DNA of 40,807 nucleotides, taken from Halonotius terrestris. Lineage in GTDB: Archaea; Halobacteriota; Halobacteria; Halobacteriales; Haloferacaceae. Under the pieces are notes generated by a model, which ran no database searches, was not told where the DNA came from, and worked only from the letters and a program-made list of their open reading frames with translations. A program made the translations under genes and the position numbers. The DNA is taken from NCBI RefSeq assembly GCF_006861665.1, contig NZ_RKLU01000008.1, positions 3,981-44,787 on the forward strand. The letters run 5' to 3'. This document shows positions 12,070 through 40,073 of this stretch, in pieces (position 1 is the first letter of the stretch; every line of letters starts with the position of its first letter).

Positions 12070-13071
12070 TCAGTAAGCCTCCTCATGGGTAATCGGACCA
12101 CTGAATACCGAGTAGAGAACAACGAAGTATGACGCCACCAGCGGCAACAACAGCGCAGCCGCCATCGACATCAGGTTCAGCGGGAGCGTCGAGACGATGG
12201 TCTCGCTGATCGTCGCACCGGTTGCCGGGTCAATGGCGGGATACATGATAATCGCCACGACGGTCACTAGCCCGTAGGTGAGGACGGCCGCAGTCCCGAG
12301 TGCCAGTAGGCTCTCACCGCGCTGCATGGCGACGACATATCCCGCTGTGAGACCGATTGAGGTGACCACCAGCGCGATGATAGCCGGATGCAGCAGCGTC
12401 GACAGTCCACTGGGGAGTTGCACGGCGAGGATCACCAGCGTTGCCACCACTGCAAGCAGGTAGCCGCTGATTGCGTACTGGCCGTACGTCGACACTCGAT
12501 CTGGAAGATCGGTCGGAGCTTTAAGCTGGAGGAACGCTGCACCGGAGACGACTGTTAGCAGTGTCAGCGTGAGGCCAACAATGACACCGACCAGCGACAT
12601 GGAACCTTCGTTGCCGACGAGCCAGTTGCCAGCGAAGACACCGAGGAGGAATGGCGCAAGGACGCTACCAACGACGAAGGCGATACTCCATGCCTGCTGC
12701 CAGCGCTTGTCGTGACGCTGTTCGTACATTTCTGGAGCCAGCCCGCGTAGGATGAGCGCACCCAATATGCCAAACATTAGCAAGTAATGCCGGCTGAAAA
12801 GCGTCGCGTAGGCCTCCGGGAACGCCGCGAAAAGCGCGCCGCCGAAGACCACGAGCCAGACCTCGTTACCGTCCCAAAACGGACCGATGGCGGCGAGAAC
12901 GGTCTCGCGCTCATGATCGGTGTCAAGCAGACCGAATATCGCTCCAGCCCCGAAGTCGAACCCGTCGAGAAACAGGAACGTGGCCAGCAGCGCGAATATG
13001 AGTCCGAACCAGATCTCCGGTAGCGGGAGGCCGAACAGCGGCCCGGCACTGAGTGACTCAACGCTAATCAT
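12070..13071 (-). CDS. cydB: Cytochrome bd oxidase subunit II
   Basis: 333 residues from the ATG at 13071, which has GGGAGGTG six bases upstream; a longer frame to 13107 adds 12 residues with no family match. It has about nine membrane helices and the family's signature run WDGNEVWLVVFGGALFAAF, followed by PEAYATLFS. CydB pairs with CydA in the cytoplasmic membrane to form the quinol:O2 oxidoreductase, a high-affinity terminal oxidase that does not pump protons. It lies 50 bp after cydA, in one operon with the following small membrane protein. Confidence 0.92.
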   Translation of the reverse strand: MISVESLSAGPLFGLPLPEIWFGLIFALLATFLFLDGFDFGAGAIFGLLDTDHERETVLAAIGPFWDGNEVWLVVFGGALFAAFPEAYATLFSRHYLLMFGILGALILRGLAPEMYEQRHDKRWQQAWSIAFVVGSVLAPFLLGVFAGNWLVGNEGSMSLVGVIVGLTLTLLTVVSGAAFLQLKAPTDLPDRVSTYGQYAISGYLLAVVATLVILAVQLPSGLSTLLHPAIIALVVTSIGLTAGYVVAMQRGESLLALGTAAVLTYGLVTVVAIIMYPAIDPATGATISETIVSTLPLNLMSMAAALLLPLVASYFVVLYSVFSGPITHEEAY

Positions 13072-13121
13072 CGTCGACACCTCCCGGCAGTCCACTGTCG
13101 GTGTCACTCATTGTCAGCATG

Positions 13122-14558
13122 TCAGTCATTATCTGCGACCTCCATGGTGGGGCTCTCGGGCATCGGCGTACGGTCAGGTCGCTCACGGAGCTGTTCGCCC
13201 CGTGGTGGGCCATTGCGGATAACCCGGGCGATGACGTACGTGTATAGTCCGAGCAACGTAAGATAGACTACGAGGAAGCTGATCAGCGTTATCGTCGCCT
13301 CGGTACCAGTCAGCCCGGGGGAGACACCTTCGCTGGTCTTCATCACGCCCTGGATGATCCACGGCTGTCTGCCGACCTCAGTGACAACCCAGCCGAGTTC
13401 AACGGCGATGATACCCAGTAGTGACGACCCCATCAACGCCTTATGTAGCAGACCGTCGTCAAAGAGCTGGCCCTTGTACCATCGGTACCCACCCCAGAAC
13501 GACAGTAGGATGAACCAAAAGCCCATCCCAACCATTGCGCGGAAGGCCCAGAAGACGATTGCCACCGGCGGTGACTGGGCCTCAAAGGAGTTCAGCCCGC
13601 GTATTTCAGCGTTCGGATCTCCCCCGCTGGCTAGCCACGACGCACCGCCGGGTATCCCGAGGCCGAACAACTCCTTTGCCCGAGGATCAGTGATCGAATC
13701 GAGACTGGTCGGGAAGGCTATCATATACTCGGGCACGTATGAGTCAGTTTCCCAGACGGCCTCCATCGCCGCAAATTTCTGTGGTTGGGTTTCGGCGACC
13801 TGTCGGGCGTACATGTCGCCCTGATAGACTTGGAACGGTGCCGTAATCAACAGCGCAATCAGTGCGATCTTCAGCGTCGTCTCCCAGAAATTTACGTTGT
13901 CGATCTCTATGTTACGGACGTGGTGTTTAAAAACGTAGTAGGCAGCGATCCCGGCCATAAAGAGCGCAACCGACTCAACAGCCGCGTTCTGCATGTGGAC
14001 GAACATATAACCGAACCGAGGGTTAAAATAGGCCGCAATCGGGTCAACGAGTTTGATGATCATCTGGCCATCTTCGGTCACGGTCCTGAACCCCCGCGGC
14101 GTCTGCATCCACGAGTTGGCAATGAGGATCCAGACCGCCGAGAGCCACGTGCCGAGGCCAACGGCAACACTCGACAGGAAATAGAGTTTGTCACCGACAC
14201 GTTTGCGACCGAATACGAAGATACCGAGGAACGTTGCTTCCAGCATGAATGCCATCATTCCCTCAACGGCTAACGGGCCGCCGAACAGCTCGCCAGCAGC
14301 GGTCGCAAACGCTGCGAAGTTTGTTCCGAACTCGAATTCGAGAACAATCCCTGTGACGGTGCCAACAACAAAGGAGATAGCGAAAATCTTGGTCCAGAAT
14401 CGACGCAACTGTTCGTACACCGGTTTTCCAGTCCGAATATCCTTCCACGTAAAGTAGATGAGGAATGGGGCTAACCCCATGCTCATCACCGGGAAGATGA
14501 TGTGAACCATCGTGGTGAGGGCGAACTGGAGCCGGCTGGCGAGAAATGGATCGACCAT
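13122..14558 (-). CDS. cydA: Cytochrome bd oxidase subunit I
   Basis: 478 residues, the haem-bearing subunit of quinol oxidase bd. Haem ligands and proton-path residues fall at their usual places: His19 in SRLQFALTTMVH (haem b595), Glu99 and Glu107 in VEGMMAFMLEATF, His188 in FVHMQ and Met342 in FRAMVGMG (haem b558), and the motif GRQPW at 396-400. The loop between the quinol-side helices is short, as in the CydA-S class. It is the first gene of the cyd operon. Haloarchaeal enzymes of this family are thought to oxidise menaquinol under low oxygen. Confidence 0.94.
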   Translation of the reverse strand: MVDPFLASRLQFALTTMVHIIFPVMSMGLAPFLIYFTWKDIRTGKPVYEQLRRFWTKIFAISFVVGTVTGIVLEFEFGTNFAAFATAAGELFGGPLAVEGMMAFMLEATFLGIFVFGRKRVGDKLYFLSSVAVGLGTWLSAVWILIANSWMQTPRGFRTVTEDGQMIIKLVDPIAAYFNPRFGYMFVHMQNAAVESVALFMAGIAAYYVFKHHVRNIEIDNVNFWETTLKIALIALLITAPFQVYQGDMYARQVAETQPQKFAAMEAVWETDSYVPEYMIAFPTSLDSITDPRAKELFGLGIPGGASWLASGGDPNAEIRGLNSFEAQSPPVAIVFWAFRAMVGMGFWFILLSFWGGYRWYKGQLFDDGLLHKALMGSSLLGIIAVELGWVVTEVGRQPWIIQGVMKTSEGVSPGLTGTEATITLISFLVVYLTLLGLYTYVIARVIRNGPPRGEQLRERPDRTPMPESPTMEVADND

Positions 14559-24399: not shown

Positions 24400-26205
24400 C
24401 TAGTTCATCAGAAGCACAGCCAATGCCACCACAACCAGCACAGTCAATAGGAAGACGCCCCGCCCGATCCCCGTCCGAAGCGTAACGGAATCAATTCCCG
24501 TAACCCGCTGTACGAACGCTTGGGGGTTGGTTCCGACCTGTTTGGCGCTCGAGACCGCTTTCATGACGATATTATCGACATCTGCCCACAGTTCAGTGAC
24601 GCCGATGACAAGTCCACGACTACCGTAGAACATCGTGGGGTTGTAGATTGTATCGACATCCGGTATCCGGCCGAGTTTGGACAGCGGCTTTTTTATAGTG
24701 GCGAAGCCGATCAATCCCACGACAGCAAGTGCCATACCCTCGACGATGTGGTCGACAGTGTAAGTCGTGTATGGATGTTCGAGTGCCGCGCTGGTCACAT
24801 CATACGGGAGGAGCGCAAACAGCGCACTGTCGACCACACCATAATAGATACAGAGAGCCGCGACTGACAGCATGGCAATGCTCTGTCCGCGGTTAGCATC
24901 TAGGACGCTCCCGTCGTAGCTGCCATGGAAGAAGGCGTAGTAGCCGAACTTGATGAACGACATGAACGTCCCGACCCCACCCAACAGGAGCAACCATTCG
25001 AGTGTCGTTCGATCGGCAAAGGCGAGCGGCCCGTCAATGAAGTTGTAGTGGCTCGCCGAGAGCACGATCCCCTTGCTCACAAAGCCGTTGAAGCCGGGGA
25101 ACCCGGCAATCGAGAGGGCGGCGATGGTGAACGCCACTGTGGTAATCGGCATCTGGCGAGCGAGTCCGCCGAGCTTTTCCAGGTTCTCCTCGCCAGTGCG
25201 GTAGATGACGACACCGGCAGTCATGAACAGCAGTCCCTTGTAGAGGATGTGGTTGAACACGTGGGCAAACGCCCCGGCCTGGGCGAGCGCGCCGCCGATA
25301 CCGACCCCGGCGATCATGTAGCCTACTTGGGATTGGATGTGGTACGATAGCAGTCGACGCATATCGTTCTGGAACAGCGCGTAGGTCGCCCCGAAGACGG
25401 CCATTGCGCCACCCATATAGGCGATAGCGAGACTTCCCTCAGGGAACGCACGGTACATCCCATACACACCGGTCTTCGTGGTGAACACACAGAGGAAGAC
25501 GCTAGCGGCGATGTGTGGCCGCGGGTAGGTATCCGGTAACCACGTGTGGAGACCGATAAAACCGACATTAACGCCGATGCCAATCGCCGCGAGCGCGGCC
25601 GGAAGTCCGGCTGTGATGCCAGCCACTTCGGGGCCACCCGGCACCGAGGCAAACAGGAAGGTGCCTTTTGCGACGTAGGTCTGAAGAATCGCAGCCATCA
25701 GCAGTGTCCCACTAATCCCATGGAAGATCGCATACCGATAGCCAGCCCGGATTGCTTTCCCCTTATAATGCCAGACTAACAGCGTGCTCGTGACCGCCAT
25801 CAGCTCCCAGAAGAAGATGAGCGTCAGCCAGTCACCGGCGAAGACAGCCCCGAAGCTTGTTGCTACGTACGAGAGTGCAATCCCTGTCTGGGTCGACTCG
25901 GCCTCGCTGGCATACGAGTAGAGTACCGCGACGATGCCGATCAGTGCGAAGATAATCCCCATCAGCCGCGAGAACTGGTCGACGTTGAACAACACGGCAT
26001 CGAAGCCGAGGAACTGCGTCTGGAGATAGGCTCCTGATGGAACCGTCCACACCCACGCGAGCGTCAGCGCCGAGGCACCGACACCGAGGGCGTGGCCAGC
26101 CCGCCGTGGCAGCAGTACAACGAGGATGGCAACCGCCAGCAGGACGACCACTGGCGGTACCGCGGTCAGCGCGCCCGCTGACACGGTCGTCAGTGCGGTC
26201 GCCAT
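24400..26205 (-). CDS. Mrp/NuoL-like proton-conducting membrane subunit (D type)
   Basis: 601 residues, about 14 membrane helices, proton antiporter-like (complex I/Mrp) family. Glu134 of the FFWELMAVTST helix, Lys244 (FTTKTGVYGMYR) and the Lys of HILYKGLLFMTAG are kept. However, the buried Lys of the discontinuous helix before LHTWLPD is missing: the motif reads GVNVGFIGLHTWLP with Asn213 where K is usual. It overlaps the upstream subunit by one base (TAATG), so the two are made together. The other Mrp or complex I subunits are not in the window. Role: ion translocation in a redox-independent or partner-dependent complex. Confidence 0.82.
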   Translation of the reverse strand: MATALTTVSAGALTAVPPVVVLLAVAILVVLLPRRAGHALGVGASALTLAWVWTVPSGAYLQTQFLGFDAVLFNVDQFSRLMGIIFALIGIVAVLYSYASEAESTQTGIALSYVATSFGAVFAGDWLTLIFFWELMAVTSTLLVWHYKGKAIRAGYRYAIFHGISGTLLMAAILQTYVAKGTFLFASVPGGPEVAGITAGLPAALAAIGIGVNVGFIGLHTWLPDTYPRPHIAASVFLCVFTTKTGVYGMYRAFPEGSLAIAYMGGAMAVFGATYALFQNDMRRLLSYHIQSQVGYMIAGVGIGGALAQAGAFAHVFNHILYKGLLFMTAGVVIYRTGEENLEKLGGLARQMPITTVAFTIAALSIAGFPGFNGFVSKGIVLSASHYNFIDGPLAFADRTTLEWLLLLGGVGTFMSFIKFGYYAFFHGSYDGSVLDANRGQSIAMLSVAALCIYYGVVDSALFALLPYDVTSAALEHPYTTYTVDHIVEGMALAVVGLIGFATIKKPLSKLGRIPDVDTIYNPTMFYGSRGLVIGVTELWADVDNIVMKAVSSAKQVGTNPQAFVQRVTGIDSVTLRTGIGRGVFLLTVLVVVALAVLLMN

Positions 26206-27938
26206 TAGACGACCACTCCCGGCAGATTCGACACAATCGTCTCGACGATTCGGAGGAAGACAATTGTGTGGGGAACGACTCCCAGCACGATCGACAGCAA
26301 CGCAACAGTCACAATCGGTCCGAGCATGAACCAGGTACTCTCACCGCCGCGCCAGTTACTCTTGGTCCATCCTCCCGGTGGCGGCCCGCCGTGATGGTCC
26401 TCGTGACCCTTGCCGATATGGTCGGCGTGTGTGGGATCCAGAATATCCTCACCTGTCGCGTCCTGCTGGTCGGTCGCGGCGCTATCACCACCGTCAGCAC
26501 GAACCACGTCCCGACCGCCGAATGGGCCTTCAATGAGCGGTTTTTCGTCGTGATCTTCGGGCGTCTCAAAGAAGGCCTGGTAGACGATGGGCCAGAAGTA
26601 GACAATATTGAGAATACCCGAGACCAACAATACCGCTGCGAAGATGCCATATCCGCCCTGGAAGGCCCCGATAACGATATACCACTTACTGACGAAGCCA
26701 GCCACGAGTGGAATTCCGGCCATTCCGGCGGCGGCCACCCCAAAGGCGACCATCGTCAGCGGCATCCGCCTGCCGATCCCAACCATATCGCTGATGTCGT
26801 CTGTGTGAGTTTCGACGTGGATGATTCCCGCACAGAAAAACAGGGTGAGCTTCATAAACGCGTGGGCTGGGATGTGGAGCAGGCCGCCGATGAGCGCGTT
26901 ACCCTCCAGCAGTGCAAGGCCGAGTACAATGTAGGAAAGCTGGCTCACTGTCGAGTAAGCCAGCCTACGCTTGAGGTTTTCCTGCCGCAGGGCAATGATG
27001 CTGGCGACCGTCAGCGTGATCGCCGCAACGATTGCAAGCGGGAGTGCGATGCCAAGATCGCCAAAGGCTTCGGGACCGAGTTGGGCCAGTGTCTCGGGAC
27101 CGAACACGTCAAGCACGACCCGTGCAATCCCGAACACACCGCTTTTGACGACTGCGACCGCGTGGAGCAGTCCAGAGACCGGCGTCGGCGCGATCATCGC
27201 GCTCGGCAGCCACTGGTGGAGCGGCATCAGTCCGGCTTTGACGCCGAAGCCCAGTGCGAGGATAATAAAGGCCAGCGAAGCGGCGGTTGGATCAGCGTTT
27301 GCGAGGGCAGCGATGCCGCCCGGTGTGAACGCAACCGTTGCGCTGTCGACACCCGGTGCCAGACTCGTCAGCCAGTAGACCACCACGGTCCCTGCCAGCA
27401 CCAATACACCGCCACCGAAGAAGGTGTAGGCAAGGTATTTCCGGCCTGCGGCGCGTGCCTTCGGTGTCTCGTCATGGACAACCAGTGGGTAGGTTGCTAC
27501 CGAGAGTACTTCATAAAAGATGAAGATCGTCAGGAGGTTCCCTGAGAAGGCGATGCCGACCGCCGAGGCGACCGAAACAGCGAACGATGCGAAGTAGCGT
27601 GTCTGGTTGTCCTCGTCGAGCCCACGCATATATCCAATACTGTAGAAGCTTGTGACGACCCACAGTAGACTCGCCAGTAACGCAAACAGCACGCCAAGCG
27701 GATCGACTCGAAGGACGAAGTCGACACCCGGGAGAATTGTCCCGAGATTGGTGACGTAGATCTCGCCAGCGAGGACGCCGGGCACCATGCTAGCGACGAT
27801 ACCGAACATGCTCACCGAAGCGAGGATCGTCCACGCCTCCCGAAGGTTCGGTCTACGGCCCGACGCGAGGATGAGTCCGGCGGCAACGAACGATACGACG
27901 ACGGCGGCAAGCGGACGGATAGCTGTGATTTCGTTCAT
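26205..27938 (-). CDS. Mrp/NuoL-like proton-conducting membrane subunit
   Basis: 577 residues, about 14 helices. All the usual charged residues of the proton path are present: Glu143 (FIFYEVLSVATYP), Lys234 (GFGVKAGLMPLHQWLP) and Lys265 (AVAVVKSGVFG). A hydrophilic, His/Asp-rich insert at about 455-520 (DHDEKPLIEG, HADHIGKGHEDHHGG) separates the last two helices. It is the middle gene of a three-gene operon, overlapping the 95-aa gene by ATGA and the 601-aa gene by one base. It would work in the cytoplasmic membrane, moving H+ or Na+. Confidence 0.85.
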   Translation of the reverse strand: MNEITAIRPLAAVVVSFVAAGLILASGRRPNLREAWTILASVSMFGIVASMVPGVLAGEIYVTNLGTILPGVDFVLRVDPLGVLFALLASLLWVVTSFYSIGYMRGLDEDNQTRYFASFAVSVASAVGIAFSGNLLTIFIFYEVLSVATYPLVVHDETPKARAAGRKYLAYTFFGGGVLVLAGTVVVYWLTSLAPGVDSATVAFTPGGIAALANADPTAASLAFIILALGFGVKAGLMPLHQWLPSAMIAPTPVSGLLHAVAVVKSGVFGIARVVLDVFGPETLAQLGPEAFGDLGIALPLAIVAAITLTVASIIALRQENLKRRLAYSTVSQLSYIVLGLALLEGNALIGGLLHIPAHAFMKLTLFFCAGIIHVETHTDDISDMVGIGRRMPLTMVAFGVAAAGMAGIPLVAGFVSKWYIVIGAFQGGYGIFAAVLLVSGILNIVYFWPIVYQAFFETPEDHDEKPLIEGPFGGRDVVRADGGDSAATDQQDATGEDILDPTHADHIGKGHEDHHGGPPPGGWTKSNWRGGESTWFMLGPIVTVALLSIVLGVVPHTIVFLRIVETIVSNLPGVVV

Positions 27939-29120: not shown

Positions 29121-29666
29121 TTACCCGGAGAACTCGCTGTAGGAGACGCTCCCTTGGTCGACGATGGTCTGACTCTCAGGAACGGGTCCGTCTGGTGGCA
29201 TACTTCCTTCAGCAGGACCGCTAGGTTCACCAACGACGATTCGGCCGACCATACCCAAGGTCTTGTGTGGGAGACAGAAGTAGTCATACGTTCCCGTAGT
29301 TTCGAACGTGTGTTCATAGGTCGCACCCTGTTCGCTCAAAATTTCGCTATTGAACGCTGCTGCTCCATCTGGAATGCGAGTTACTGAGGCTGAACTCGTG
29401 TCTTCACTATAGGCAGTCGCCGAGTGACTCCCACTTTCAATTTCGAACGTAACCGTCTCGCCAGCCTCGACGAACAGCCCAATTGGATCGAAATAATACT
29501 CGCTACCTTCGGTAACCATCAAGACCGTATTTGAGTCTCCTGAGTTATCGGTTCCTGTCGATTCAGAACCACCGTTTCCGTCCCCAGATCCGGTACAGCC
29601 TGCGAGACTGGTTACGCCACCTGTCGAAATGATTCCAACAGTCTTGATGAGGTGTCGACGCTCCAT
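29121..29666 (-). CDS. Halocyanin-like blue copper lipoprotein
   Basis: About 181 residues; ATG at 29666 (a GTG two codons earlier is possible), with a TATA box 23-28 nt upstream. The signal has a twin arginine (ERRHLIKTVG) and a lipobox ending SLAGC, so the mature protein is a lipid-anchored, Tat-exported copper protein. A Ser/Gly/Asp linker follows, then one cupredoxin domain. The copper ligands are His in GSHSATAY and Cys, His and Met in YFCLPHKTLGM, a normal type 1 site. Halocyanins carry electrons at the outer membrane face to terminal oxidases. The C-terminal 35 residues are an extra polar tail. Confidence 0.88.
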   Translation of the reverse strand: MERRHLIKTVGIISTGGVTSLAGCTGSGDGNGGSESTGTDNSGDSNTVLMVTEGSEYYFDPIGLFVEAGETVTFEIESGSHSATAYSEDTSSASVTRIPDGAAAFNSEILSEQGATYEHTFETTGTYDYFCLPHKTLGMVGRIVVGEPSGPAEGSMPPDGPVPESQTIVDQGSVSYSEFSG

Positions 29667-29688
29667 ACCCACAGATCAGATACCCCGG

Positions 29689-29730: not shown

Positions 29731-30342
29731 TTACGTCTCAAAAAATTCTCGGACTGACTTCCACCCGATGAATCGGGGTGTCTGGTCACAGTACTCTTCG
29801 TATTCGTCCCCATACTGTTCACGCAGCCATGGTTCTTCTGCGAACGGGAAGAGTGCGTACACAATGATTGTCAGTATGCCATGCACCAATAATTTCCGAG
29901 AGTTTACTGCGACAATCGTGCCAATGATGAAAGGGATGAATCCTACGCTTTGGGGGTTTCGCGTGTATTGATAGATTCCGTCCGTCCGGAGTTCTCCTTC
30001 TCTTCCAGTGCTTTCCATCCACCCAAGCTCAAACAGAGCCGAGAGTGAAAAGCCCATACCGACCACTGAAAGAAGACCTCCGAGTGTTTTGCTCAGCTTG
30101 CTAGTGAATATGAATGAATCCCTATCGAGGTAGGCCAAAACGGGGAATCCGGCGAATACCACCGAGAGGTTTGACCAGTTGAACCACCACCGCCAAGAGC
30201 TATCGCCGATTGGCCATACCCGGCGCTCGGGATTTACTGCACTGATTAGGTATCCTATAATGAGAGTAACATTCGCAACTATCGTAATGAGGAGGGTTCG
30301 ATCTGATACTGATGACATAAATGGACATACGCTAGAGTTCAT
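29731..30342 (-). CDS. Isoprenylcysteine methyltransferase-like (ICMT/PEMT) membrane protein
   Basis: 203 residues (or 195 from the ATG at 30318), with about five membrane helices. The C-terminal half carries the ICMT/PEMT fold signature: GIYQYTRNPQSVGFIPFIIG, and FAEEPWLREQYGDEYEEYC followed by PRFI. In this fold the arginine-Asn-Pro and the Glu-Glu-x-x-L parts bind S-adenosylmethionine. The family methylates prenylated cysteines or lipids, but many prokaryotic members have no assigned substrate. It lies between a copper protein gene and a divergent membrane protein gene. Confidence 0.78.
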   Translation of the reverse strand: MNSSVCPFMSSVSDRTLLITIVANVTLIIGYLISAVNPERRVWPIGDSSWRWWFNWSNLSVVFAGFPVLAYLDRDSFIFTSKLSKTLGGLLSVVGMGFSLSALFELGWMESTGREGELRTDGIYQYTRNPQSVGFIPFIIGTIVAVNSRKLLVHGILTIIVYALFPFAEEPWLREQYGDEYEEYCDQTPRFIGWKSVREFFET

Positions 30343-30933: not shown

Positions 30934-32343
30934 GTGACATCGTGGTCCACTAATCGCTTTCCTGGACTCCTGGCGGCGACAGCAATCGGGATCTATTTGC
31001 TGCTGCTACTCGGCGCGACAACCGCATTGACAGATACAACTATATGCAATGCTTGGCCTCTCTGTGGAAGCGGGTGGACCCTCCCGACATCGGTCACAGG
31101 CTATCTCGTAGTTGGACACCGCCTCGCAGCGATCCTTGTTGGACTACTCGGTACAGTCACCGTCATCGCCAGCTGGCACAGCAGGATTGATCAGCGAGTG
31201 CGTACAGCACTGGCTATCTCAGGAATCCTCTATGTCATTCAAGCCGGGATCGGTGCCGTCGTAGCAATGAATGGCGAGTCGACGTATCTCTCTTCGATAC
31301 ACCTGCTCGTGGGGATGCTGATCTTCGCCGGAGTCATCGCTGCGCTCGCATGGACACTTGAGATAGAAACGGGTGATCCATCGGACGTTCCATCGACAGC
31401 AACGTCGTCTCCAGATCATGAACTGCCTTCAGAAACGGAGCGTAACGTAACGATGCCGACCAATTCGGTTACGCGGGCAAAGATGACTGCTTTTGCCTAT
31501 ATTAGATTGATGAAACCACGGCTAATGTGGTTGCTCTGTCTCGTCGCGTTCGCAGCAATGGCGCTCGCTGGAACCACTGGTCCAGGAGTAAGCTGGGAGA
31601 TCGTCCTAGCGACACTCGGTGGAGGTGTCCTCTCTATTGGTGCTAGTGGCACGTTCAACCACGTCCTTGAGCGTGATGTCGACCGTCGAATGGCCCGAAC
31701 AAGTGACCGGCCGCTCGCTACCGACCTCGTGCCCGTAGGTAATGCCATTGCATTCGGGTGTCTGCTGACGGTTGCCTCGCTTGGGTTGTTCGCTTGGGTT
31801 AACCTCCTCGCGGCTGCCTTCGGTCTCGCAGCTATCGTGTTTTATAGTATCGTCTATACGCTCATTCTGAAACCGAACACAGTCCAAAATACTGTTCTCG
31901 GGGGCTTCGCGGGGGCACTCCCAGCGTTCATTGGCTGGGTCGCCGTCACTGGAGAGATCGGATTCGGAGGGTTGGCACTCGCAACAGTCATCTTCCTTTG
32001 GACGCCCGCACACTTCTACAACCTGGCACTTGCTTACAAGGACGACTACGAACGAGGAGGATTCCCTATGTTACCAGTCGTCCGCGGAGAGACGGCCACC
32101 CGCCGTCATATTCTCTGGTATCTTGGAGCTACATTCCTCGCTACGGCTGTCCTCGCAGTCGTTGATACACTGGGTGCAACATATGTTCTCGGCAGCGTAG
32201 CCCTAGGTGCTGTGTTTCTGTGGGCAGTCATCCGACTCCATTATGAGCAGACAGAATCTGCAGCATTCCGTGCGTTCCACGCCTCAAACGCCTACCTCGG
32301 AACGCTTCTGATCGCCATCATCATCGATACACTCGCGTTCTGA
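30934..32343 (+). CDS. ctaB: CtaA-CtaB fusion: haem A synthase-like and haem O synthase
   Basis: 469 residues starting with GTG. Residues 1-145 form four helices of a half-length CtaA (haem A synthase) with the Cys pair CNAWPLC (Cys38, Cys44), GHR (His62) and SIHLLVG (His123). A 35-residue hydrophilic linker follows. Residues 185-469 are protoheme IX farnesyltransferase with KPRLMWL, FNHVLERDVDRRMARTSDRP (Asn242, Asp248, Asp250) and KDDYERGGFPML. The enzyme adds a farnesyl group to haem B in the membrane; the CtaA part would oxidise the product. Such fusions are known in haloarchaea. It serves haem-copper oxidases, which are not in the window. Confidence 0.88.
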   Translation: MTSWSTNRFPGLLAATAIGIYLLLLLGATTALTDTTICNAWPLCGSGWTLPTSVTGYLVVGHRLAAILVGLLGTVTVIASWHSRIDQRVRTALAISGILYVIQAGIGAVVAMNGESTYLSSIHLLVGMLIFAGVIAALAWTLEIETGDPSDVPSTATSSPDHELPSETERNVTMPTNSVTRAKMTAFAYIRLMKPRLMWLLCLVAFAAMALAGTTGPGVSWEIVLATLGGGVLSIGASGTFNHVLERDVDRRMARTSDRPLATDLVPVGNAIAFGCLLTVASLGLFAWVNLLAAAFGLAAIVFYSIVYTLILKPNTVQNTVLGGFAGALPAFIGWVAVTGEIGFGGLALATVIFLWTPAHFYNLALAYKDDYERGGFPMLPVVRGETATRRHILWYLGATFLATAVLAVVDTLGATYVLGSVALGAVFLWAVIRLHYEQTESAAFRAFHASNAYLGTLLIAIIIDTLAF

Positions 32344-32344
32344 A

Positions 32345-33409
32345 TCAGACGGTGACTTCGATAGGAGGCATATCGAAGAACGCCGTTTCATACCCGTCAT
32401 GACGCGACATCTGCGGTGGGGCGTCGACAGTAACTGTTACTGTATCACCAGACTGAAGCTGCCCGACAGTTCCTCCATAGTGATCGCCGAATACTGGATC
32501 AAGAGTCTCAGTGAGTATATCGTCGAATACGGTACTCCCGTCGCGTACCACTGTTGCGGACAGAGACATGAGTGGCAACATGATGCGATTATAGGGGGTT
32601 CGCGGCGAGACAGCGAGATACGATTGGTCACCGAACCGACTCGCGGTCTCTATATATGAGATGACAAACGTAGCATCGCCCGAACTAGCCGCTCCAATTA
32701 TCTCTCCAGGAAGCGCTGATTCCATTGGTGTTCTGCCAGCAGGCATCTCTTCCATCGTCGGTTCGACAGCACCACGTTCACCGGATTTTGTTCCGAGTCG
32801 TCGGAGGTCAAGATTGTAGGTGTTGGTCGTGTCGAATTCGAAATCGATCTCCGTCTCCATCGAGTTCTCGAATCGGGATTCGAATGATCCCGTTCGGCGT
32901 GCTTGTACTGGTCCGACGCTCAAACGTGCAGTATACTGTCCTTCATCGGGGAGGCTGAAGTTGTCGCCGTAATGGAAGCCCATGGTCTGAGAAAGCATCG
33001 GCCACAGTGATCGCTGTGTTACCGATTCACCGTCATTGAGGACTTCAAGCGAGATGTCTACCGGGAGAACGGTTTGGGACTCTGTATCCCAAAGGGAAGC
33101 CATGAGATGAAGTGAATCATCAGAGTTGACGACGACTCGCTGTTTATTTGATCCAGTTACCGTCCAAAACCGATGCGGATACGAAAACATCAGTGCGAAC
33201 GTGACCCCTTCAGCTGGCACCTCTTTCATCCCGTACATTCCCATCTCTTCGACAATTGCTGGGTAATAGACCGCATCTGGGCGATTCGATGGTAGTGGAG
33301 GATCGCGCCACGCAGACTGCGTCTGGAATCCAAGGGTATCGAGACACCCTGCGAGGGTTGCACTGGCTACAATACTACCACCCGCTCGGATAGCGTCTCG
33401 CCGTTTCAT
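32345..33409 (-). CDS. P19/Tp34-like metal-binding Tat lipoprotein
   Basis: 354 residues. The signal is KRRDAIRAGG with a lipobox ending LAGC (Cys22), so the protein is Tat-exported and lipid-anchored. The body matches the periplasmic iron-transporter domain (PF10634, P19/Tp34): a Met-rich loop EEMGMYGM at 55-61, YPHRFWTV, and GFHYGDNFSLPDEGQY at 144-159, close to the family's GPHYG-N motif whose His and Met bind Cu or Fe. The second half is an extra beta-rich domain. It is the last gene of a five-gene row. Its stop lies one base from that of the ctaA-ctaB fusion on the other strand. Confidence 0.65.
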   Translation of the reverse strand: MKRRDAIRAGGSIVASATLAGCLDTLGFQTQSAWRDPPLPSNRPDAVYYPAIVEEMGMYGMKEVPAEGVTFALMFSYPHRFWTVTGSNKQRVVVNSDDSLHLMASLWDTESQTVLPVDISLEVLNDGESVTQRSLWPMLSQTMGFHYGDNFSLPDEGQYTARLSVGPVQARRTGSFESRFENSMETEIDFEFDTTNTYNLDLRRLGTKSGERGAVEPTMEEMPAGRTPMESALPGEIIGAASSGDATFVISYIETASRFGDQSYLAVSPRTPYNRIMLPLMSLSATVVRDGSTVFDDILTETLDPVFGDHYGGTVGQLQSGDTVTVTVDAPPQMSRHDGYETAFFDMPPIEVTV

Positions 33410-33478
33410 ATACTGAGTTATAGGACGATTAGATTAGGACTTCCGATTCAACCAAAGAGAGACGCATAGATTTGTTCA

Positions 33479-34987
33479 CTACTGGAGGAAGGGTGGAATA
33501 GCACTCGGCAAAGAGATAATCCAGAGACTAATCACGGTGTATCCGATCATAACGAGAACAAATGGATACTGGCTGCGGATTGCGACCAGTCGACTTGCAA
33601 ATATCTTATACGAAACGGCATGTGCTGCCCCGATTGCCAAGAGGTGTCCAACCAAGATAGAGGCAATCGATAATCCACCAAACCAACCTGGGAGAGTGAG
33701 AACAATCGGGTTTGCAGGCGGCGTGAACGGTGACTGGAGGGCCATCACGAGTGCAGGACTCAACGAAATAAACAATCCTGCATAGTGGGCAAAGTGATAT
33801 CCTGCCGCAATTGCCAGTAGTGATGGAGCGAAGCTCCGTCGAAGTGTTTCTGTAGAGACATACGTTCCAACCCACTGCCGAGAGAGGTTCGCTGCGTACC
33901 AATATGCCGCAAAGAACACGAGGAAGCCGACCACGAAAAGAACGGTATAGACGACTGTTGCTTGCACTGTAGTGGGTATGAGTTCCACAGGGACGATTCC
34001 AACAAGAGTGGAGACGGTGCCAGCACCAGCACTCGTCGTGATGAAGCCGCTGAAGGTGAGTTCCCAAATAAGAGCGATGACAAATGCTATGTCTGATGTG
34101 TCAGAGAGTATCTCTGCATTCGTTAACTCACTGCCAGGGAGCTTCACCTGTATCGTACCATTACGGCGTTGTATGGGAGCCACAGCACCGTACAACCGGA
34201 AGAGAACAGCCAACGGGTCCGCATTCTCAAACCACGGGTCGACGCCGAAGACGACTGCACCTGCAAGGGTTACCACTGAATACCCAACAATAGCCGTTGC
34301 GAGGACGGTTGGAACCGTACTGACGGGAAATATGACTTCGATCCAGACTAACGTTAGGAGCCCGAAGACCGCAGGCCATCGTTTAATCTTCGATGGATAC
34401 GTCCGGAACCCGGTAGGGAGCACAAGAGCGATTGTCCGCCACGGATTGAGTATCGGCCACACGTTTCCAATGAGATAGGCGACTATTGGAAGTGCCGCCC
34501 GCCCACCTGCAAATGTAACGAGGATAGCGAAACTCGCGTTCGGGAGTTGCGGTCCAATATATCCAACAGATATTGTGAGAATGAGAATCATAACTCCGAC
34601 TGCTCGACCCACCTTCGTAACCACCCCTTCCCAGCGGTCGACCGGCAGTAATGGACGATTCCATTCATGGATGTTGCGGATGAATAGCCGATCCGTGACG
34701 AAACTCGCAAGCAGTGCAGAGGCACCAATAGTCGCTCCTCCAGTCCCGAGATAGAGCCATTGCGGGATGGCGAGTTCATCACGCGATCCACCAGACAGTG
34801 TCAGACCGTTCGCCGCAGACACAGTGTCGACGAAGAACGCTATCACAACGGTCCAGATAAGGAACTGGATTCCGAGGCGAAGCGGTCGACGGAATCGCAT
34901 CTGTTCGAGTTTTGTTGTTGGGTGATCGGTACTCGATTGAGTCTCCGATTCATCGACCGGCGGATCTGTATTATGCGAAGATGGCAT
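33479..34987 (-). CDS. Polytopic membrane protein with paired membrane histidines, function unknown
   Basis: 502 residues, about 11-12 membrane helices after an acidic, hydrophilic start. Three features stand out: NVWPILNPWRT near 175-184, AGYHFAHYAGLF (His398, His401), and GHLLAIGAAHAVSY (His448, His456). Histidine pairs inside membrane helices suggest haem or metal binding. The same layout is found in large actinobacterial membrane proteins of unknown function, as far as I recall. There is no REXXE motif, so it is not an Ftr1-type iron permease. Its first 17 bases overlap the zinc-finger gene, and the P19-like lipoprotein follows 69 bp on. Confidence 0.7.
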   Translation of the reverse strand: MPSSHNTDPPVDESETQSSTDHPTTKLEQMRFRRPLRLGIQFLIWTVVIAFFVDTVSAANGLTLSGGSRDELAIPQWLYLGTGGATIGASALLASFVTDRLFIRNIHEWNRPLLPVDRWEGVVTKVGRAVGVMILILTISVGYIGPQLPNASFAILVTFAGGRAALPIVAYLIGNVWPILNPWRTIALVLPTGFRTYPSKIKRWPAVFGLLTLVWIEVIFPVSTVPTVLATAIVGYSVVTLAGAVVFGVDPWFENADPLAVLFRLYGAVAPIQRRNGTIQVKLPGSELTNAEILSDTSDIAFVIALIWELTFSGFITTSAGAGTVSTLVGIVPVELIPTTVQATVVYTVLFVVGFLVFFAAYWYAANLSRQWVGTYVSTETLRRSFAPSLLAIAAGYHFAHYAGLFISLSPALVMALQSPFTPPANPIVLTLPGWFGGLSIASILVGHLLAIGAAHAVSYKIFASRLVAIRSQYPFVLVMIGYTVISLWIISLPSAIPPFLQ

Positions 34988-35237
34988 ACATTAGTAGAAG
35001 TCCGAAATACAGGATGACTAGCATTCCAAGGGCTTTGAGACGAAACGTCCGAAGTTCGGTGGCTTCGTCGGCGAGTTCGGATTTGAACGCCTCCTTCTCG
35101 GAAGCACTGATCACGCCGTAGTGTGCCAACCCCTTGTGGAGGTTGAGGCGATTCTGTGCTGCAAACGGTCGACCACAATAGTCACAGGAAGTGGCTGGTG
35201 CTTGTTTCGGTGGGACCTCTGTTCTGATGTAATCCAT
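34971..35237 (-). CDS. C2H2 zinc-finger protein with a membrane anchor
   Basis: 88 residues. A C2H2 finger comes first: Cys18, Cys21, His34 and His39 (SCDYCGRPFA, then NLHKGLAHYG). A charged helix follows (EKEAFKSELADEATELR), and then one C-terminal membrane helix (about 69-87). The finger should face the cytosol if the tail is embedded. It is translationally coupled to the next gene by a 17-bp overlap, so it is probably a small partner or regulator of that membrane protein. The family is haloarchaeal and uncharacterised. Confidence 0.72.
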   Translation of the reverse strand: MDYIRTEVPPKQAPATSCDYCGRPFAAQNRLNLHKGLAHYGVISASEKEAFKSELADEATELRTFRLKALGMLVILYFGLLLMYAIFA

Positions 35238-35317
35238 ACTATTTTACCTTATCTCGGAAGATAGCAGGTGGTCGTTTGAAGATGTTATGAAATTCTTAGA
35301 CCGAGGGGTTGTCCTCG

Positions 35318-36058
35318 TTAAAGAAGGCCGATCTCGCCCAGATACAGCCCTGCAAACAGTGTCGCATTGTAGCTGCCGTGAATCACTGCCGGAACAACGA
35401 TGTTGTCGGTCTTGACATACAGATATCCCAGCAGGACACCGAGAACTCCCGCCAGCAACGCATACGAGAGCTGGGCTCCGAACCCACCAGTTACTGCGGG
35501 AACATGAGACAATCCGAACAGGACTGTTGCCGCGATAATCGCGAGCCACTGTCCCCACGACTCGCTGAGTCGACCCTGCACGGCTCCCCGAAACAACAGC
35601 TCCTCGCCCGGACCGACAAACAGCAGTGAGACCGGTATCATAGCCAAGTAGTAGAGCGGATAGCCGACGCCAGTCAGCACTGCCTGATTGGCACCCGGCG
35701 CGACGTTTGCCAACTGGAGGAGTTGGTTAATGGCGTACTGGCTACCCAACAGGACGACCGTTCCGCCGACGATGAGCCCAATGGTACGACGACTGGGGAC
35801 CGCGAGCCTCACAAGCCGATCGGTGTCGATGGCTCGTAAATAGAAGGCAACGACGCCTATCACCGTCCCATACTGAATTATCGTCCGGGCAATCTTGGCC
35901 ATGTTGCTGTCGGCCGCAGAGCCAACAACCGCAGCCGTCAGTGGATCAGTGACTGCCACGACGATCCCTGCAATTAGATAGCTGCCGGCGAGTACGAGCA
36001 CCGCCTCACCGACGTGCTGGAGTCGAGTGTCCGTGGTCGGTGCTGCTGATTCCGTCAT
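35318..36058 (-). CDS. CPBP-family intramembrane glutamic endopeptidase
   Basis: 246 residues, about eight membrane helices. The three catalytic motifs are complete: EELLFR (Glu152, Glu153, Arg157), FGLSH (Phe181, His185) and HGSYN (His227, Asn231). It is a second copy related to the gene at 20309, but with higher GC, like its neighbours. It lies between the DyP-like gene and the zinc-finger gene on one strand. Its target, perhaps processing of a cluster component, is unknown. Confidence 0.87.
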   Translation of the reverse strand: MTESAAPTTDTRLQHVGEAVLVLAGSYLIAGIVVAVTDPLTAAVVGSAADSNMAKIARTIIQYGTVIGVVAFYLRAIDTDRLVRLAVPSRRTIGLIVGGTVVLLGSQYAINQLLQLANVAPGANQAVLTGVGYPLYYLAMIPVSLLFVGPGEELLFRGAVQGRLSESWGQWLAIIAATVLFGLSHVPAVTGGFGAQLSYALLAGVLGVLLGYLYVKTDNIVVPAVIHGSYNATLFAGLYLGEIGLL

Positions 36059-36189
36059 TACTGCCTGTTCCTACTGTCGGTCGACTGTTAGGCGCACCGA
36101 TTTGCAGACACCGTAGGCCGGAGAGATATCCCTCAGTAGACGGCTGTGCTGTTATGAGACAGTCGACAACGGTGAGTAGACCAATTTGA

Positions 36190-37461
36190 TCATGCTGGGT
36201 TTGGTGCGGGGAGCGATCTGTACTGGCGAGGTGGGATGAGATAATTGCCGCGACGTTTGACGGTCAAATACTGCAGAATACCGTTATTCGTTCGGGTTCC
36301 AACTGCGGAGTTCTCTGCGACATCGGTTCCATTCATTGCTTGTCTCGTAGCGGCGAAGTCAGCAATTGATTGCTGGAGTGAAACGAAGTGTACACCTGCC
36401 GCATCTCCGTCGGTCGTGTCGAAGTCCCGGCGGAGAATAACGGGTCTCTCACCGTCTTCGGCACGCGCAACTTTCTGTGCATGACCGACCATTCCCGACG
36501 TACGGGCATCCTCCTCCGTGTGTGCAGGACACGACCCAAGCTGGCTATCGTTCCCGAGGTTGTCTCCAGGACCCTCAACGGCGTCTTGTTCTGCATGAGC
36601 TGGACAAAACATTTTACCGACCCGTTGGGAACGACTGTCCTGATCATACCACTGGTCGAGATGAAGACGGATTCGGGAGATATGTTGTGTCGTTCCGTCT
36701 GCAAACGGACCGTCCTGGATCGTCACACGCTCTTCGGGTGCCTGATTCTTTTCGAATCCTGATTTAAATCCCATAAACAGCGGTGCGTCTTCAGGAACGG
36801 GCTCATCATCAGGTATCCCTTGGACATCCTGATTTTCTGCAGGGAGGCCGTCTCCGATAAATCCGGTTCGTCGATCTCGAACCTCAAACACCTCACCAAA
36901 TCCGGTCACTTCGACCTCGTTTACCGTCCCGCGGTTGCCTTTGAGTGCCTCCTCAGCTGCAAGCACAACCTGAGCGTAATCACTTGCGAGATGGACAACG
37001 GCATCCGGGTCATCAGGAGTTGGATCTTCGAACGGTGCAAGTGCCTCTGGGGTCGGTAGGTCGACGCCTCCTGGACCCGAATCGAACGCACGCTCGAAAT
37101 AGTAGGGAGAGTATCCAACCGTGAATAATAGTCCTTGAAACCCACGTTGATAGGCACGTTCGAGAGAGGTAAACGCCGCTTCGACAGTTTCGCGTTCACT
37201 CTCGGTCGGTGTGTCTCCTGTGTAGTCTACATACAGGAGAACGTGGTGGCGTGGCTGTTTGACGTTTCCATGGTCATCGCGCTCAAGAAATTGGTTCCAA
37301 GCATGTTGCCGGGGAGGCAGTGATGAGGGATCGTCAGTTCCTCGCGGGAGATCTGGCGTCTCGGTACGTTCGAGACAAGCAGACAATGCACTTGTCCCGC
37401 CGATGGCTACGGCTACTCGCATAAAGTCTCGTTTCGAAAGCCACCGCTGGGAGTCACTCAT
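36190..37461 (-). CDS. DyP-type peroxidase-like Tat lipoprotein with an altered GXXDG motif
   Basis: 423 residues. The signal has a Lys-Arg Tat-like motif (LSKRDFMRVAVAIGG) and lipobox LSAC (Cys29). The body follows the EfeB/DyP fold: HHVLLYVDYTG, QHISRIRLHLDQWY, ILRRDFDTTDG and GVHFVSLQQSIADF. A candidate proximal haem ligand is His327 (MVGHAQKVARA), and Arg263 or Arg265 fits the distal Arg. The catalytic Asp of GXXDG is replaced: the motif reads GFKSG (Ser234). An Asp does occur in GFIGDG at 200-205, but not at the usual place. It may bind haem without normal peroxidase chemistry. It heads the five-gene row. Confidence 0.75.
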   Translation of the reverse strand: MSDSQRWLSKRDFMRVAVAIGGTSALSACLERTETPDLPRGTDDPSSLPPRQHAWNQFLERDDHGNVKQPRHHVLLYVDYTGDTPTESERETVEAAFTSLERAYQRGFQGLLFTVGYSPYYFERAFDSGPGGVDLPTPEALAPFEDPTPDDPDAVVHLASDYAQVVLAAEEALKGNRGTVNEVEVTGFGEVFEVRDRRTGFIGDGLPAENQDVQGIPDDEPVPEDAPLFMGFKSGFEKNQAPEERVTIQDGPFADGTTQHISRIRLHLDQWYDQDSRSQRVGKMFCPAHAEQDAVEGPGDNLGNDSQLGSCPAHTEEDARTSGMVGHAQKVARAEDGERPVILRRDFDTTDGDAAGVHFVSLQQSIADFAATRQAMNGTDVAENSAVGTRTNNGILQYLTVKRRGNYLIPPRQYRSLPAPNPA

Positions 37462-37631: not shown

Positions 37632-40073
37632 ATGAGCGACCAAGCAGATTCACCACCACCAGATATCGAGGACACATCGAACGAATCGACTAACGGACAC
37701 GATCACTCGCACGACCACAATCACGATCATCCTGATGGACACAAGGACACCCAGTCACAGACCGAGATAAACGGACACAGCGTTACCTTCGACGTCCCTG
37801 AGATGGACTGCCCTTCGTGTGCGGGGAAAGTTGAAAAAAGCATACAGTCCGTTGACGGCATAGAGTCGTTCGATACACGTCCAACATCAGGAACGGTAGT
37901 TGTCGCATACGATAGCTCCCGTAGTGACTCCAGTTCGTTCGTCCGTGCCATCGAGAGTGCTGGCTACGAAGTTACTGGCTCCTCGGCAGCGGATGATCTC
38001 GACTCACCGACTGAGGGAGACACTGACGACCGGTCGAGTGTCTGGCGGAGCCTCCGAGCAAAGAAGACCGCGGTGAGCGGTGTGTTTCTGGGCCTTGGTC
38101 TCCTTGTTGAGTGGGCACTAACAGGCCTCAACGGTGAGGTTGCGAATGTGCTTGGCGTGATATTTTCGCTCTCTGAGGTGTTTTTCCTTGCAGGAATTGG
38201 TTTCGGCGGACAAGAGATCGTCCGAAACGGCTACTACTCGGCTCGAAACCGCAACCTCGACATCGATTTCCTGATGAGTGTCGCAATTATCAGTGCCATC
38301 GTTGCAAGCCTACTCTCGCCTGCAACGAGTCTCTACTTCGAGGCTGCGACACTGGCGTTCCTCTTTAGCATCTCTGAACTACTCGAACGGTATTCGATGG
38401 ACCGGACGCGGAATTCACTCCGGGAACTCATGGATCTCTCGCCGGATGAGGCGACCGTGAAACGGGACGGTGAGGAGGTCACGATTCCAGTCGACGAGGT
38501 ATCGGTCGGCGACATCGTTGTCGTCCGGCCCGGGGAGAAAATTCCGATGGACGGCGAGGTTCGGGAGGGCGAAACCGCTGTTAACGAAGCCCCCATCACT
38601 GGCGAATCGGTTCCGATTGACAAAATTCCAGGCGACGAGGTGTTTGCTGGGACGATCAACGAAACGGGCTATCTCGAAATCGAAGTCACCTCGGAAGCGG
38701 GAGACAACACGCTGTCTCGGATCGTCGACCTCGTGGAAGATGCCCAGTCGAACAAGACCGAACGCGAACAGTTCGTCGAGCGATTCGCTGACATCTATAC
38801 GCCGGTAATGGTCGCTGTTGCGATTCTCGTCGCAGTTGTTCCACCACTGGTCTTCAGTGCGAATTGGACCCAGTGGTTCGTCTACGGGATCACGATGCTC
38901 GTGCTCGCGTGTCCCTGTGCGTTCGTCATTTCGACACCCGTCTCTGTCGTCTCAGGGATCACAAGCGCTGCAAAAAACGGCGTGCTCATCAAGGGTGGAA
39001 ATTACCTTGAGGCGATGGGTGATGTCGAGGCAATTGCCGTCGACAAGACTGGAACACTGACGAAGGGTGAGCTGACGGTCACCGACATCATCCCGCTAAA
39101 TGGTCACAGTGAGGAGGATGTCCTCCAGTGCGCTCGCGGGCTTGAAACGCGAAGTGAACATCCTATCGGTGAAGCGATCGTCGCCCATGCCGAGGGGAAA
39201 AACGTTCCCAGTCGTGAGGTGACCGACTTCGAGAGCCGAACCGGGAAGGGAGTGCAGGCGACCCTAGACGGTATTCCACACTATGCGGGTAAGCTTGGGT
39301 TCTTCGACGACCTCGGGTTCGATCTCGAACACGCCCATGTCGTTGGCCCGCAAAACGAACTCAGCAGTGAGGTTCGTGAGTTGTGTGATCGTCAGGGCTG
39401 TTTAAACCTCGTCGAAGATACCGTTCCACGGTTAGAAAACGAGGGGAAGACGGTTGTCCTCGTTGGAACCGAAGACGAAATCGAGGGGATCATCGCTGTT
39501 GCTGATGATATCCGTCCTGATGCAAAACAGACCGTCGACCGGCTGCAGGATCTCGGCGTGGAAGTCGTGATGCTCACCGGCGACAACAAACGGACTGCCC
39601 GTGCTATCGCCGACGAGGTCGGTGTCGAGGATTTCCGGGCAGAGCTCCTCCCGGAAGACAAGGTCAATGCTGTTGAGGAACTCCTTGAATCGTATGACGG
39701 TGTGGCGATGGTTGGAGATGGGATAAACGATGCCCCGGCACTTGCCACCGCGACAGTCGGTATTGCGATGGGTGCTGCCGGAACGGATACAGCTCTGGAG
39801 ACTGCCGATATTGCCCTCATGGGAGACGACCTCTCCAAACTGCCATACCTCTATGAGCTGTCACACGATGCCAACAGTGTCATTCGACAGAATATCTGGG
39901 CCAGTCTCGGCGTCAAAGCCCTGCTCGCGGTTGGAGTTCCGCTCGGATACGTAAGCGTCGCACTCGCGGTATTGATCGGCGATGCAGGAATGACTGTTGG
40001 TGTGACAGGCAACGCAATGCGGCTCTCACGCATACGACCGGATCGATCACAAGATAATGATATCAAGGATTAG
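37632..40073 (+). CDS. zntA: P1B-2-type Zn/Cd/Pb-translocating P-type ATPase
   Basis: 813 residues. An N-terminal His/Asp run (HDHSHDHNHDHPDGH) is followed by one HMA domain with MDCPSCA (Cys60, Cys63). The membrane site is CPC (427-429) in ACPCAFVISTPVSVVSGITS; phosphorylated Asp471 is in DKTGTLTKG; TGES and GDGINDAP are present. The last two helices have the P1B-2 signature: Lys in NIWASLGVKALLAVG and the Asp-Gly-type DAG in LIGDAGMTVGVTGNAMRL, which set Zn, Cd and Pb specificity rather than Cu. It exports these ions across the cytoplasmic membrane. A small membrane protein follows eight bases after the stop. Confidence 0.9.
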   Translation: MSDQADSPPPDIEDTSNESTNGHDHSHDHNHDHPDGHKDTQSQTEINGHSVTFDVPEMDCPSCAGKVEKSIQSVDGIESFDTRPTSGTVVVAYDSSRSDSSSFVRAIESAGYEVTGSSAADDLDSPTEGDTDDRSSVWRSLRAKKTAVSGVFLGLGLLVEWALTGLNGEVANVLGVIFSLSEVFFLAGIGFGGQEIVRNGYYSARNRNLDIDFLMSVAIISAIVASLLSPATSLYFEAATLAFLFSISELLERYSMDRTRNSLRELMDLSPDEATVKRDGEEVTIPVDEVSVGDIVVVRPGEKIPMDGEVREGETAVNEAPITGESVPIDKIPGDEVFAGTINETGYLEIEVTSEAGDNTLSRIVDLVEDAQSNKTEREQFVERFADIYTPVMVAVAILVAVVPPLVFSANWTQWFVYGITMLVLACPCAFVISTPVSVVSGITSAAKNGVLIKGGNYLEAMGDVEAIAVDKTGTLTKGELTVTDIIPLNGHSEEDVLQCARGLETRSEHPIGEAIVAHAEGKNVPSREVTDFESRTGKGVQATLDGIPHYAGKLGFFDDLGFDLEHAHVVGPQNELSSEVRELCDRQGCLNLVEDTVPRLENEGKTVVLVGTEDEIEGIIAVADDIRPDAKQTVDRLQDLGVEVVMLTGDNKRTARAIADEVGVEDFRAELLPEDKVNAVEELLESYDGVAMVGDGINDAPALATATVGIAMGAAGTDTALETADIALMGDDLSKLPYLYELSHDANSVIRQNIWASLGVKALLAVGVPLGYVSVALAVLIGDAGMTVGVTGNAMRLSRIRPDRSQDNDIKD

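Follow-up and report, generated by a model that had tools for sequence, protein, structure and literature searches.

A haloarchaeal zinc-finger, membrane-protein and P19-like lipoprotein gene module with a possible role in copper handling

The window analysed here is a 40,807-nucleotide stretch of the Halonotius terrestris genome (NCBI RefSeq assembly GCF_006861665.1, contig NZ_RKLU01000008.1, positions 3,981 to 44,787 of the forward strand). On its minus strand lie five consecutive open reading frames with intergenic gaps of 131, 80, -17 and 69 bp, exactly the layout given by a first-pass annotation, which had read the five genes as one metal-uptake-like cluster. The interesting element of the locus is a polytopic membrane protein, here called MEM, whose family is undescribed in the databases searched. 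The five genes and the divergent ATPase gene beside them are as follows.

32345..33409, minus strand: P19/FtrA-like Tat lipoprotein, a PF10634 piece plus PF24041 (DUF7350) (Pfam, profile search)
33479..34987, minus strand: MEM, polytopic membrane protein of about 11 helices (no Pfam/NCBIfam family; AlphaFold2 model)
34971..35237, minus strand: C2H2 zinc finger (ZnF) with a C-terminal transmembrane anchor, DUF7410-like (Pfam, below cut-off)
35318..36058, minus strand: CPBP/Rce1-like intramembrane protease, PF02517 (Pfam)
36190..37461, minus strand: DyP-like Tat lipoprotein with a haem peroxidase fold, PF24152 (DUF7405) (Pfam, AlphaFold2 model, conservation)
37632..40073, plus strand: divergent heavy-metal P1B ATPase with a Zn/Cd/Pb-like (P1B-2) signature (CPC, NIWASLGVKALL, GDAG)

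MEM matched no family in Pfam or NCBIfam; this includes the FTR1 family of Pfam and, at E values up to 1, the CopD family. No relative was found in the PDB by sequence or fold. AlphaFold2 gives a confident, mostly helical model (pLDDT 86), and the charge pattern, with 14 Lys/Arg residues in predicted inner loops and one in the outer loops, fits an N-inside topology. A fold relationship to known transporters or cytochromes was considered and rejected, since nothing significant was returned (best E 0.013, TM 0.15). As the first-pass annotation had noted, a regular-expression search finds no REXXE motif in the window MEM (the motif occurs in six of 70 homologues), and two histidine pairs lie within membrane helices of the model, toward the inner half: helix 388-418 carries H398/H401 and helix 435-462 carries H448/H456. 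Across 59 haloarchaeal homologues H401, H448, H456, W177, W204, E217, W252, D257 and Y397 never vary, and H398 is conserved in at least 90% of them. A presumed likeness between MEM and proteins that bear the name 'fenitrothion hydrolase' was set aside, no publication that would allow a test having been found.

MEM is present in 112 of 147 related genomes. About 80 MEM neighbourhoods, named genomes included, were fetched and reduced to 70 non-redundant loci, which were picked from hit lists to cover the range of similarity and are not a random sample. The zinc finger, originally regarded as an extra piece, proved to be the constant partner of MEM, being its same-strand neighbour at 56 of the 70 loci. 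The two genes overlap or lie no more than 10 bp apart in 46 of 55 measured pairs, whichever comes first, which points to translational coupling. P19 was found within 3 kb of MEM at 31 loci; genomes of 3.5 Mb hold about three P19 genes, and we estimate that such proximity would arise by chance in well under 1% of loci. A P1B ATPase gene occurs within 7 kb of MEM at 17 loci and a DyP gene at 15, and a CDF gene is near at 12. The genes for P19, ZnF, MEM and a P-type ATPase are consecutive on one strand in Haloferax. The CPBP gene was near MEM at four of the 70 loci, which is not evidence of linkage because these genomes encode many CPBP proteins, several of them in this contig, and it is probably a passenger in the cluster.

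The DyP-like gene has a partnership of its own. Twenty chromosomal DyP loci were drawn from the same genomes by a DUF7405 search that disregarded P19, and P19 directly adjoins DyP in 16 of them, mostly in the order DyP-then-P19 on one strand. This pairing is independent of MEM, and the window therefore joins two modules, DyP+P19 and ZnF+MEM+P19. Among the 70 loci only two, those of the window and of Halohasta litorea, have the complete five-gene set, which is two older modules plus a CPBP passenger and not a conserved unit. The expectation that all five families would stay adjacent across haloarchaea thus held for these two groupings and failed for the five-gene unit, and a conserved five-gene system of the EfeUOB kind finds no support: the earlier interpretation was right in parts and wrong in treating the five genes as one system. 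In Haladaptatus salinisoli (L134:6944-9596), a DyP-type gene directly follows a distant MEM homologue, an independent MEM-DyP association.

In a maximum-likelihood tree, MEM sequences fall into two sister clades of 32 and 37 members (support 100/98) with distinct surroundings. Cytochrome c oxidase genes adjoin MEM in 29 of the 32 members of one clade. P19 adjoins it in 31 of the 37 members of the other, which holds the window MEM, so the MEM-P19 link recognized at first pass is well kept; a P1B-type ATPase gene is often beside MEM in this clade as well. Context labels placed on the tree require 2 changes, whereas shuffled labels require about 21. Gene order also follows the clades, being MEM-ZnF in cox-linked loci and ZnF-MEM in P19-linked loci. 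DUF7541, which weakly resembles cytochrome oxidase subunit IV, is encoded beside MEM in both settings.

A 17,506-bp island carrying MEM, P19, DyP, P1B and CDF genes (L097, L098, L099, L100, L114, L120; 1001-18506) is shared across genera. Copies with 100% identity occur in Halorussus marinus, Halorussus halobius, Haloarcula amylovorans, Halosegnis rubeus and Haloarcula japonica, and Haloarcula marismortui pNG600 matches them at 99.994%. Such near-identity reflects either a plasmid that spread very recently or a contaminant that the assemblies share. In the genome of the window itself MEM has five matches (contigs C1, C7, C21, C25 and C26, the window being part of C25), of which two are truncated at a contig end, and DUF7350 has ten.

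Relatives of MEM exist in Actinomycetota and Pseudomonadota. Haloarchaeal and bacterial profiles compared with hhalign gave a probability of 100 and E 9e-65, and at about 25% identity the bacterial homologues always keep the counterparts of H401 and H448 and nearly always that of H456. Copper genes are among the bacterial neighbours: hmoCAB, encoding a copper monooxygenase (PMC8784404); CopC with a metal-sensitive regulator and an oxidase subunit III; and PCu(A)C. In actinobacteria and Variovorax, a small gene upstream of MEM encodes a secreted product that looks cupredoxin-like by eye and gave no Pfam match above cut-off. In mycobacteria and Rhodococcus (L122:5207-7002, L130:6501-8404, L126:7756-9347), hmoCAB and related genes are flanked or interrupted by a MEM homologue and a small, possibly cupredoxin-like gene.

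Both end genes of the cluster encode exported lipoproteins, and their placing in the P19 and DyP families has been borne out. The P19-like protein scores 28.2 bits against PF10634 (cut-off 21), its family profile matches FtrA structures (E 2e-7), and its Tat-type signal is followed by a lipobox cysteine, C22, invariant in the family. It was aligned with FtrA from the Azospirillum ftrABCD operon (L156), and three MAFFT modes agreed. Of the copper ligands of Campylobacter jejuni P19, His42, Met88, His95 and His132, the first three align with H101, M138 and H146 of the window protein. The iron-analogue site of P19 consists of Glu3, Glu44, Asp46 and Asp92 (PMC9174327). Glu44 and Asp46 are replaced by M103 and S105 in the window lipoprotein, and Asp92, judged by its spacing before the histidine, by M143. 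This loss of the acidic patch (M103, a non-acidic residue 105 and M143) extends to all 75 haloarchaeal P19-like sequences, which are also identical at H79, H101, M103, M138, M143, H146, H337 and E341. On general grounds of coordination chemistry, sites rich in histidine and methionine suit Cu(I) better than iron. With the iron-site acids replaced by invariant methionines in a His/Met-rich site, Cu(I) is therefore favoured, and the sequence suggests a predicted site for Cu(I) rather than iron in a family now annotated as an 'iron transporter'. No paper on DUF7350 or DUF7405 was found in the library searched, and term searches of two haloarchaeal copper papers turned up none of these proteins.

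The DyP-like protein belongs to PF24152 (E 1.4e-163) with Dyp_perox_C also over cut-off (E 9.3e-6), and its AlphaFold2 model matches DyP peroxidase structures (Foldseek E 3.5e-16, probability 1.00, TM 0.5-0.7). It begins with a Tat-type signal and a lipobox cysteine, C29, invariant in the family. H327 (proximal) and R345 (distal), 18 residues apart, are invariant in 29 sequences; with the same spacing as the H226/R244 pair of DyPB, they presumably correspond to it. The distal Asp of the GxxDG motif is not kept, family members having D, E, S, A or P at position 204. Given the conserved His/Arg pair and the lost Asp, the lipoprotein likely binds haem, with ordinary DyP peroxidase chemistry uncertain. 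H260, which is Q, T or V in relatives, was rejected as haem ligand in favour of H327, and so was a metal site at the twin CPAH motif in an insertion of the window protein, the motif not being conserved. ZnF scores 22 bits against DUF7410, below the cut-off of 27.5, and the CPBP protein 77 bits against PF02517 (Rce1-like; cut-off 22.4, E 1.4e-21).

The other flank of the cluster holds a gene for a COX15-CtaB fusion haem O synthase (30934-32343), a PEMT/ICMT-like methyltransferase gene (29731-30342), which adjoins DyP in plasmid islands too, and a gene for a plastocyanin/azurin-type cupredoxin (29121-29672). Farther away the window encodes another P1B-type ATPase and CydAB, the cytochrome bd oxidase (463-2724 and 12070-14558), and a tandem pair of membrane subunits resembling those of NADH-quinone oxidoreductase and Mrp antiporters (24400-27938). 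A scan for bacterial-type promoters was uninformative, since the host is an archaeon. The divergent P1B ATPase exceeds the cut-offs of both TIGR01511 and TIGR01512; its assignment as a copper-type CopA was rejected on account of its K and DxG residues, which indicate P1B-2.

We tentatively favour a reading, to which we give somewhat less than an even chance, of the ZnF-MEM-P19 core as a copper-handling module in which a copper lipoprotein hands the metal to MEM for import or insertion. The Tat-secreted, membrane-anchored P19-like lipoprotein would bind copper, most likely Cu(I), outside the cell at its His/Met site and pass it to MEM through a presumed contact between the two. MEM would then move the copper into or across the membrane by way of the conserved histidines clustered in its final helices, with the ZnF anchor perhaps sensing or receiving metal at the cytoplasmic face. 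It would be a copper route whose membrane component was undescribed. Judging from gene context, such a module probably directs copper to respiratory enzymes or, on plasmids, serves to manage it: the cox-linked clade may serve cytochrome c oxidase assembly, and the plasmid clade of the window may manage copper beside a P1B-type exporter. The DyP-like lipoprotein, recruited from its separate pairing with P19, could set the redox state of extracellular metal.

Several observations weigh against this copper-handling reading. The equivalent of the fourth copper ligand of P19, His132, is lost in the P19-like protein, and MEM is without a solved relative in the PDB. A number of alphaproteobacterial MEM homologues adjoin genes for nicotinate catabolism, not copper genes. 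In its CPC, K and DxG residues the adjacent ATPase follows the Zn/Cd/Pb exporters, and MEM frequently has a CDF exporter close by, which fits tolerance to other metals. Because these neighbouring exporters look Zn/Cd-type, we can only infer the direction of transport and the metal; the uptake direction of the first-pass annotation was likewise presumptive, the neighbouring P1B-2 and CDF transporters being of export type. Together they make tolerance, rather than uptake, a serious rival, although we consider it unlikely: the lipoprotein would be an extracellular sink, and MEM, the P1B ATPase and the CDF protein would remove excess Zn, Cd or Cu. The plasmid location of loci, the counts of P1B-2-type ATPase (17/70) and CDF genes (12/70) and the Haloferax gene order P19-ZnF-MEM-ATPase agree with such a role, whereas the sister MEM clade adjoins cytochrome oxidase and not exporters, and a Met-rich P19 site does not favour Zn or Cd.

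MEM might instead be a haem-binding or redox protein, two of its conserved histidines ligating a b-type haem and an oxidase or dehydrogenase, or else the DyP-like protein, being its partner in electron exchange. H401 and H448 do lie at similar depth in neighbouring helices, and oxidases, monooxygenases, nicotinate dehydrogenase and DyP are among the neighbours, but MEM matches no cytochrome b family or fold and its partners P19 and CopC/PCu(A)C are carriers of metal rather than of electrons, so that we regard this role as improbable. Iron uptake of the EfeUOB or P19-Ftr1 kind is more improbable still. The conserved pairing of DyP-like and P19-like lipoproteins speaks for it; against it, MEM has neither an FTR1 match nor REXXE, no EfeO/M75 protein was matched, and the iron option is weakened because the acidic patch of P19 is lost, in 75 of 75 sequences. 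Least credible, and scarcely to be expected, is a chance run of five genes without shared function. The CPBP linkage is indeed not above chance and the five-gene order is confined to the window and Halohasta litorea, but ZnF-MEM-P19 linkage spans many genera and DyP-P19 pairing recurs at 16 of 20 chromosomal loci, which contradicts chance for four of the five genes.

A broader proposal, possible though on the doubtful side, is that MEM founds a new copper transporter or insertase family of archaea and bacteria, which would load haloarchaeal cytochrome oxidase and mycobacterial copper monooxygenases with the help of P19-like or cupredoxin-like carriers. By gene context, one membrane family with an intramembrane histidine triad and dedicated metal carriers is linked to both kinds of enzyme. 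Little is known of how copper gets to the membrane copper enzymes of archaea and of hydrocarbon-oxidising mycobacteria, and MEM offers a concrete deletion target in a genetically tractable haloarchaeon.

The locus has distinct points of contact with known systems. As in P19-Ftr1/FtrABCD systems such as Azospirillum ftrABCD, an exported P19-family protein adjoins a polytopic membrane protein, yet here the membrane protein is not FTR1, the iron-site acids are replaced, and FtrB cupredoxin and FtrD are absent. With EfeUOB the locus has in common a Tat-exported DyP-fold protein within a metal-related cluster, although EfeU/FTR1 and EfeO/M75 are lacking, the catalytic Asp of the DyP-like protein is variable, and no match to M75/imelysin families was found among the five proteins or the scanned neighbours. 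The CopCD/YcnJ copper importers likewise combine an exported copper-binding part with a membrane metal site and a link to cytochrome oxidase supply, cytochrome aa3 of B. subtilis receiving copper from the CopC+CopD protein YcnJ (PMC13344008), whereas MEM stands outside the CopD family and the P19-like lipoprotein is not CopC. The bacterial MEM proteins encoded beside copper genes and beside hmoCAB of Mycolicibacterium chubuense NBB4 (MYCCH_RS28725) and M. dioxanotrophicus are homologous and carry the same histidine triad, with a small, possibly cupredoxin-like secreted protein as partner instead of ZnF and P19. By analogy, the haloarchaeal module appears to parallel P19-Ftr1 and YcnJ without belonging to either, and to be built around an unrelated membrane protein.

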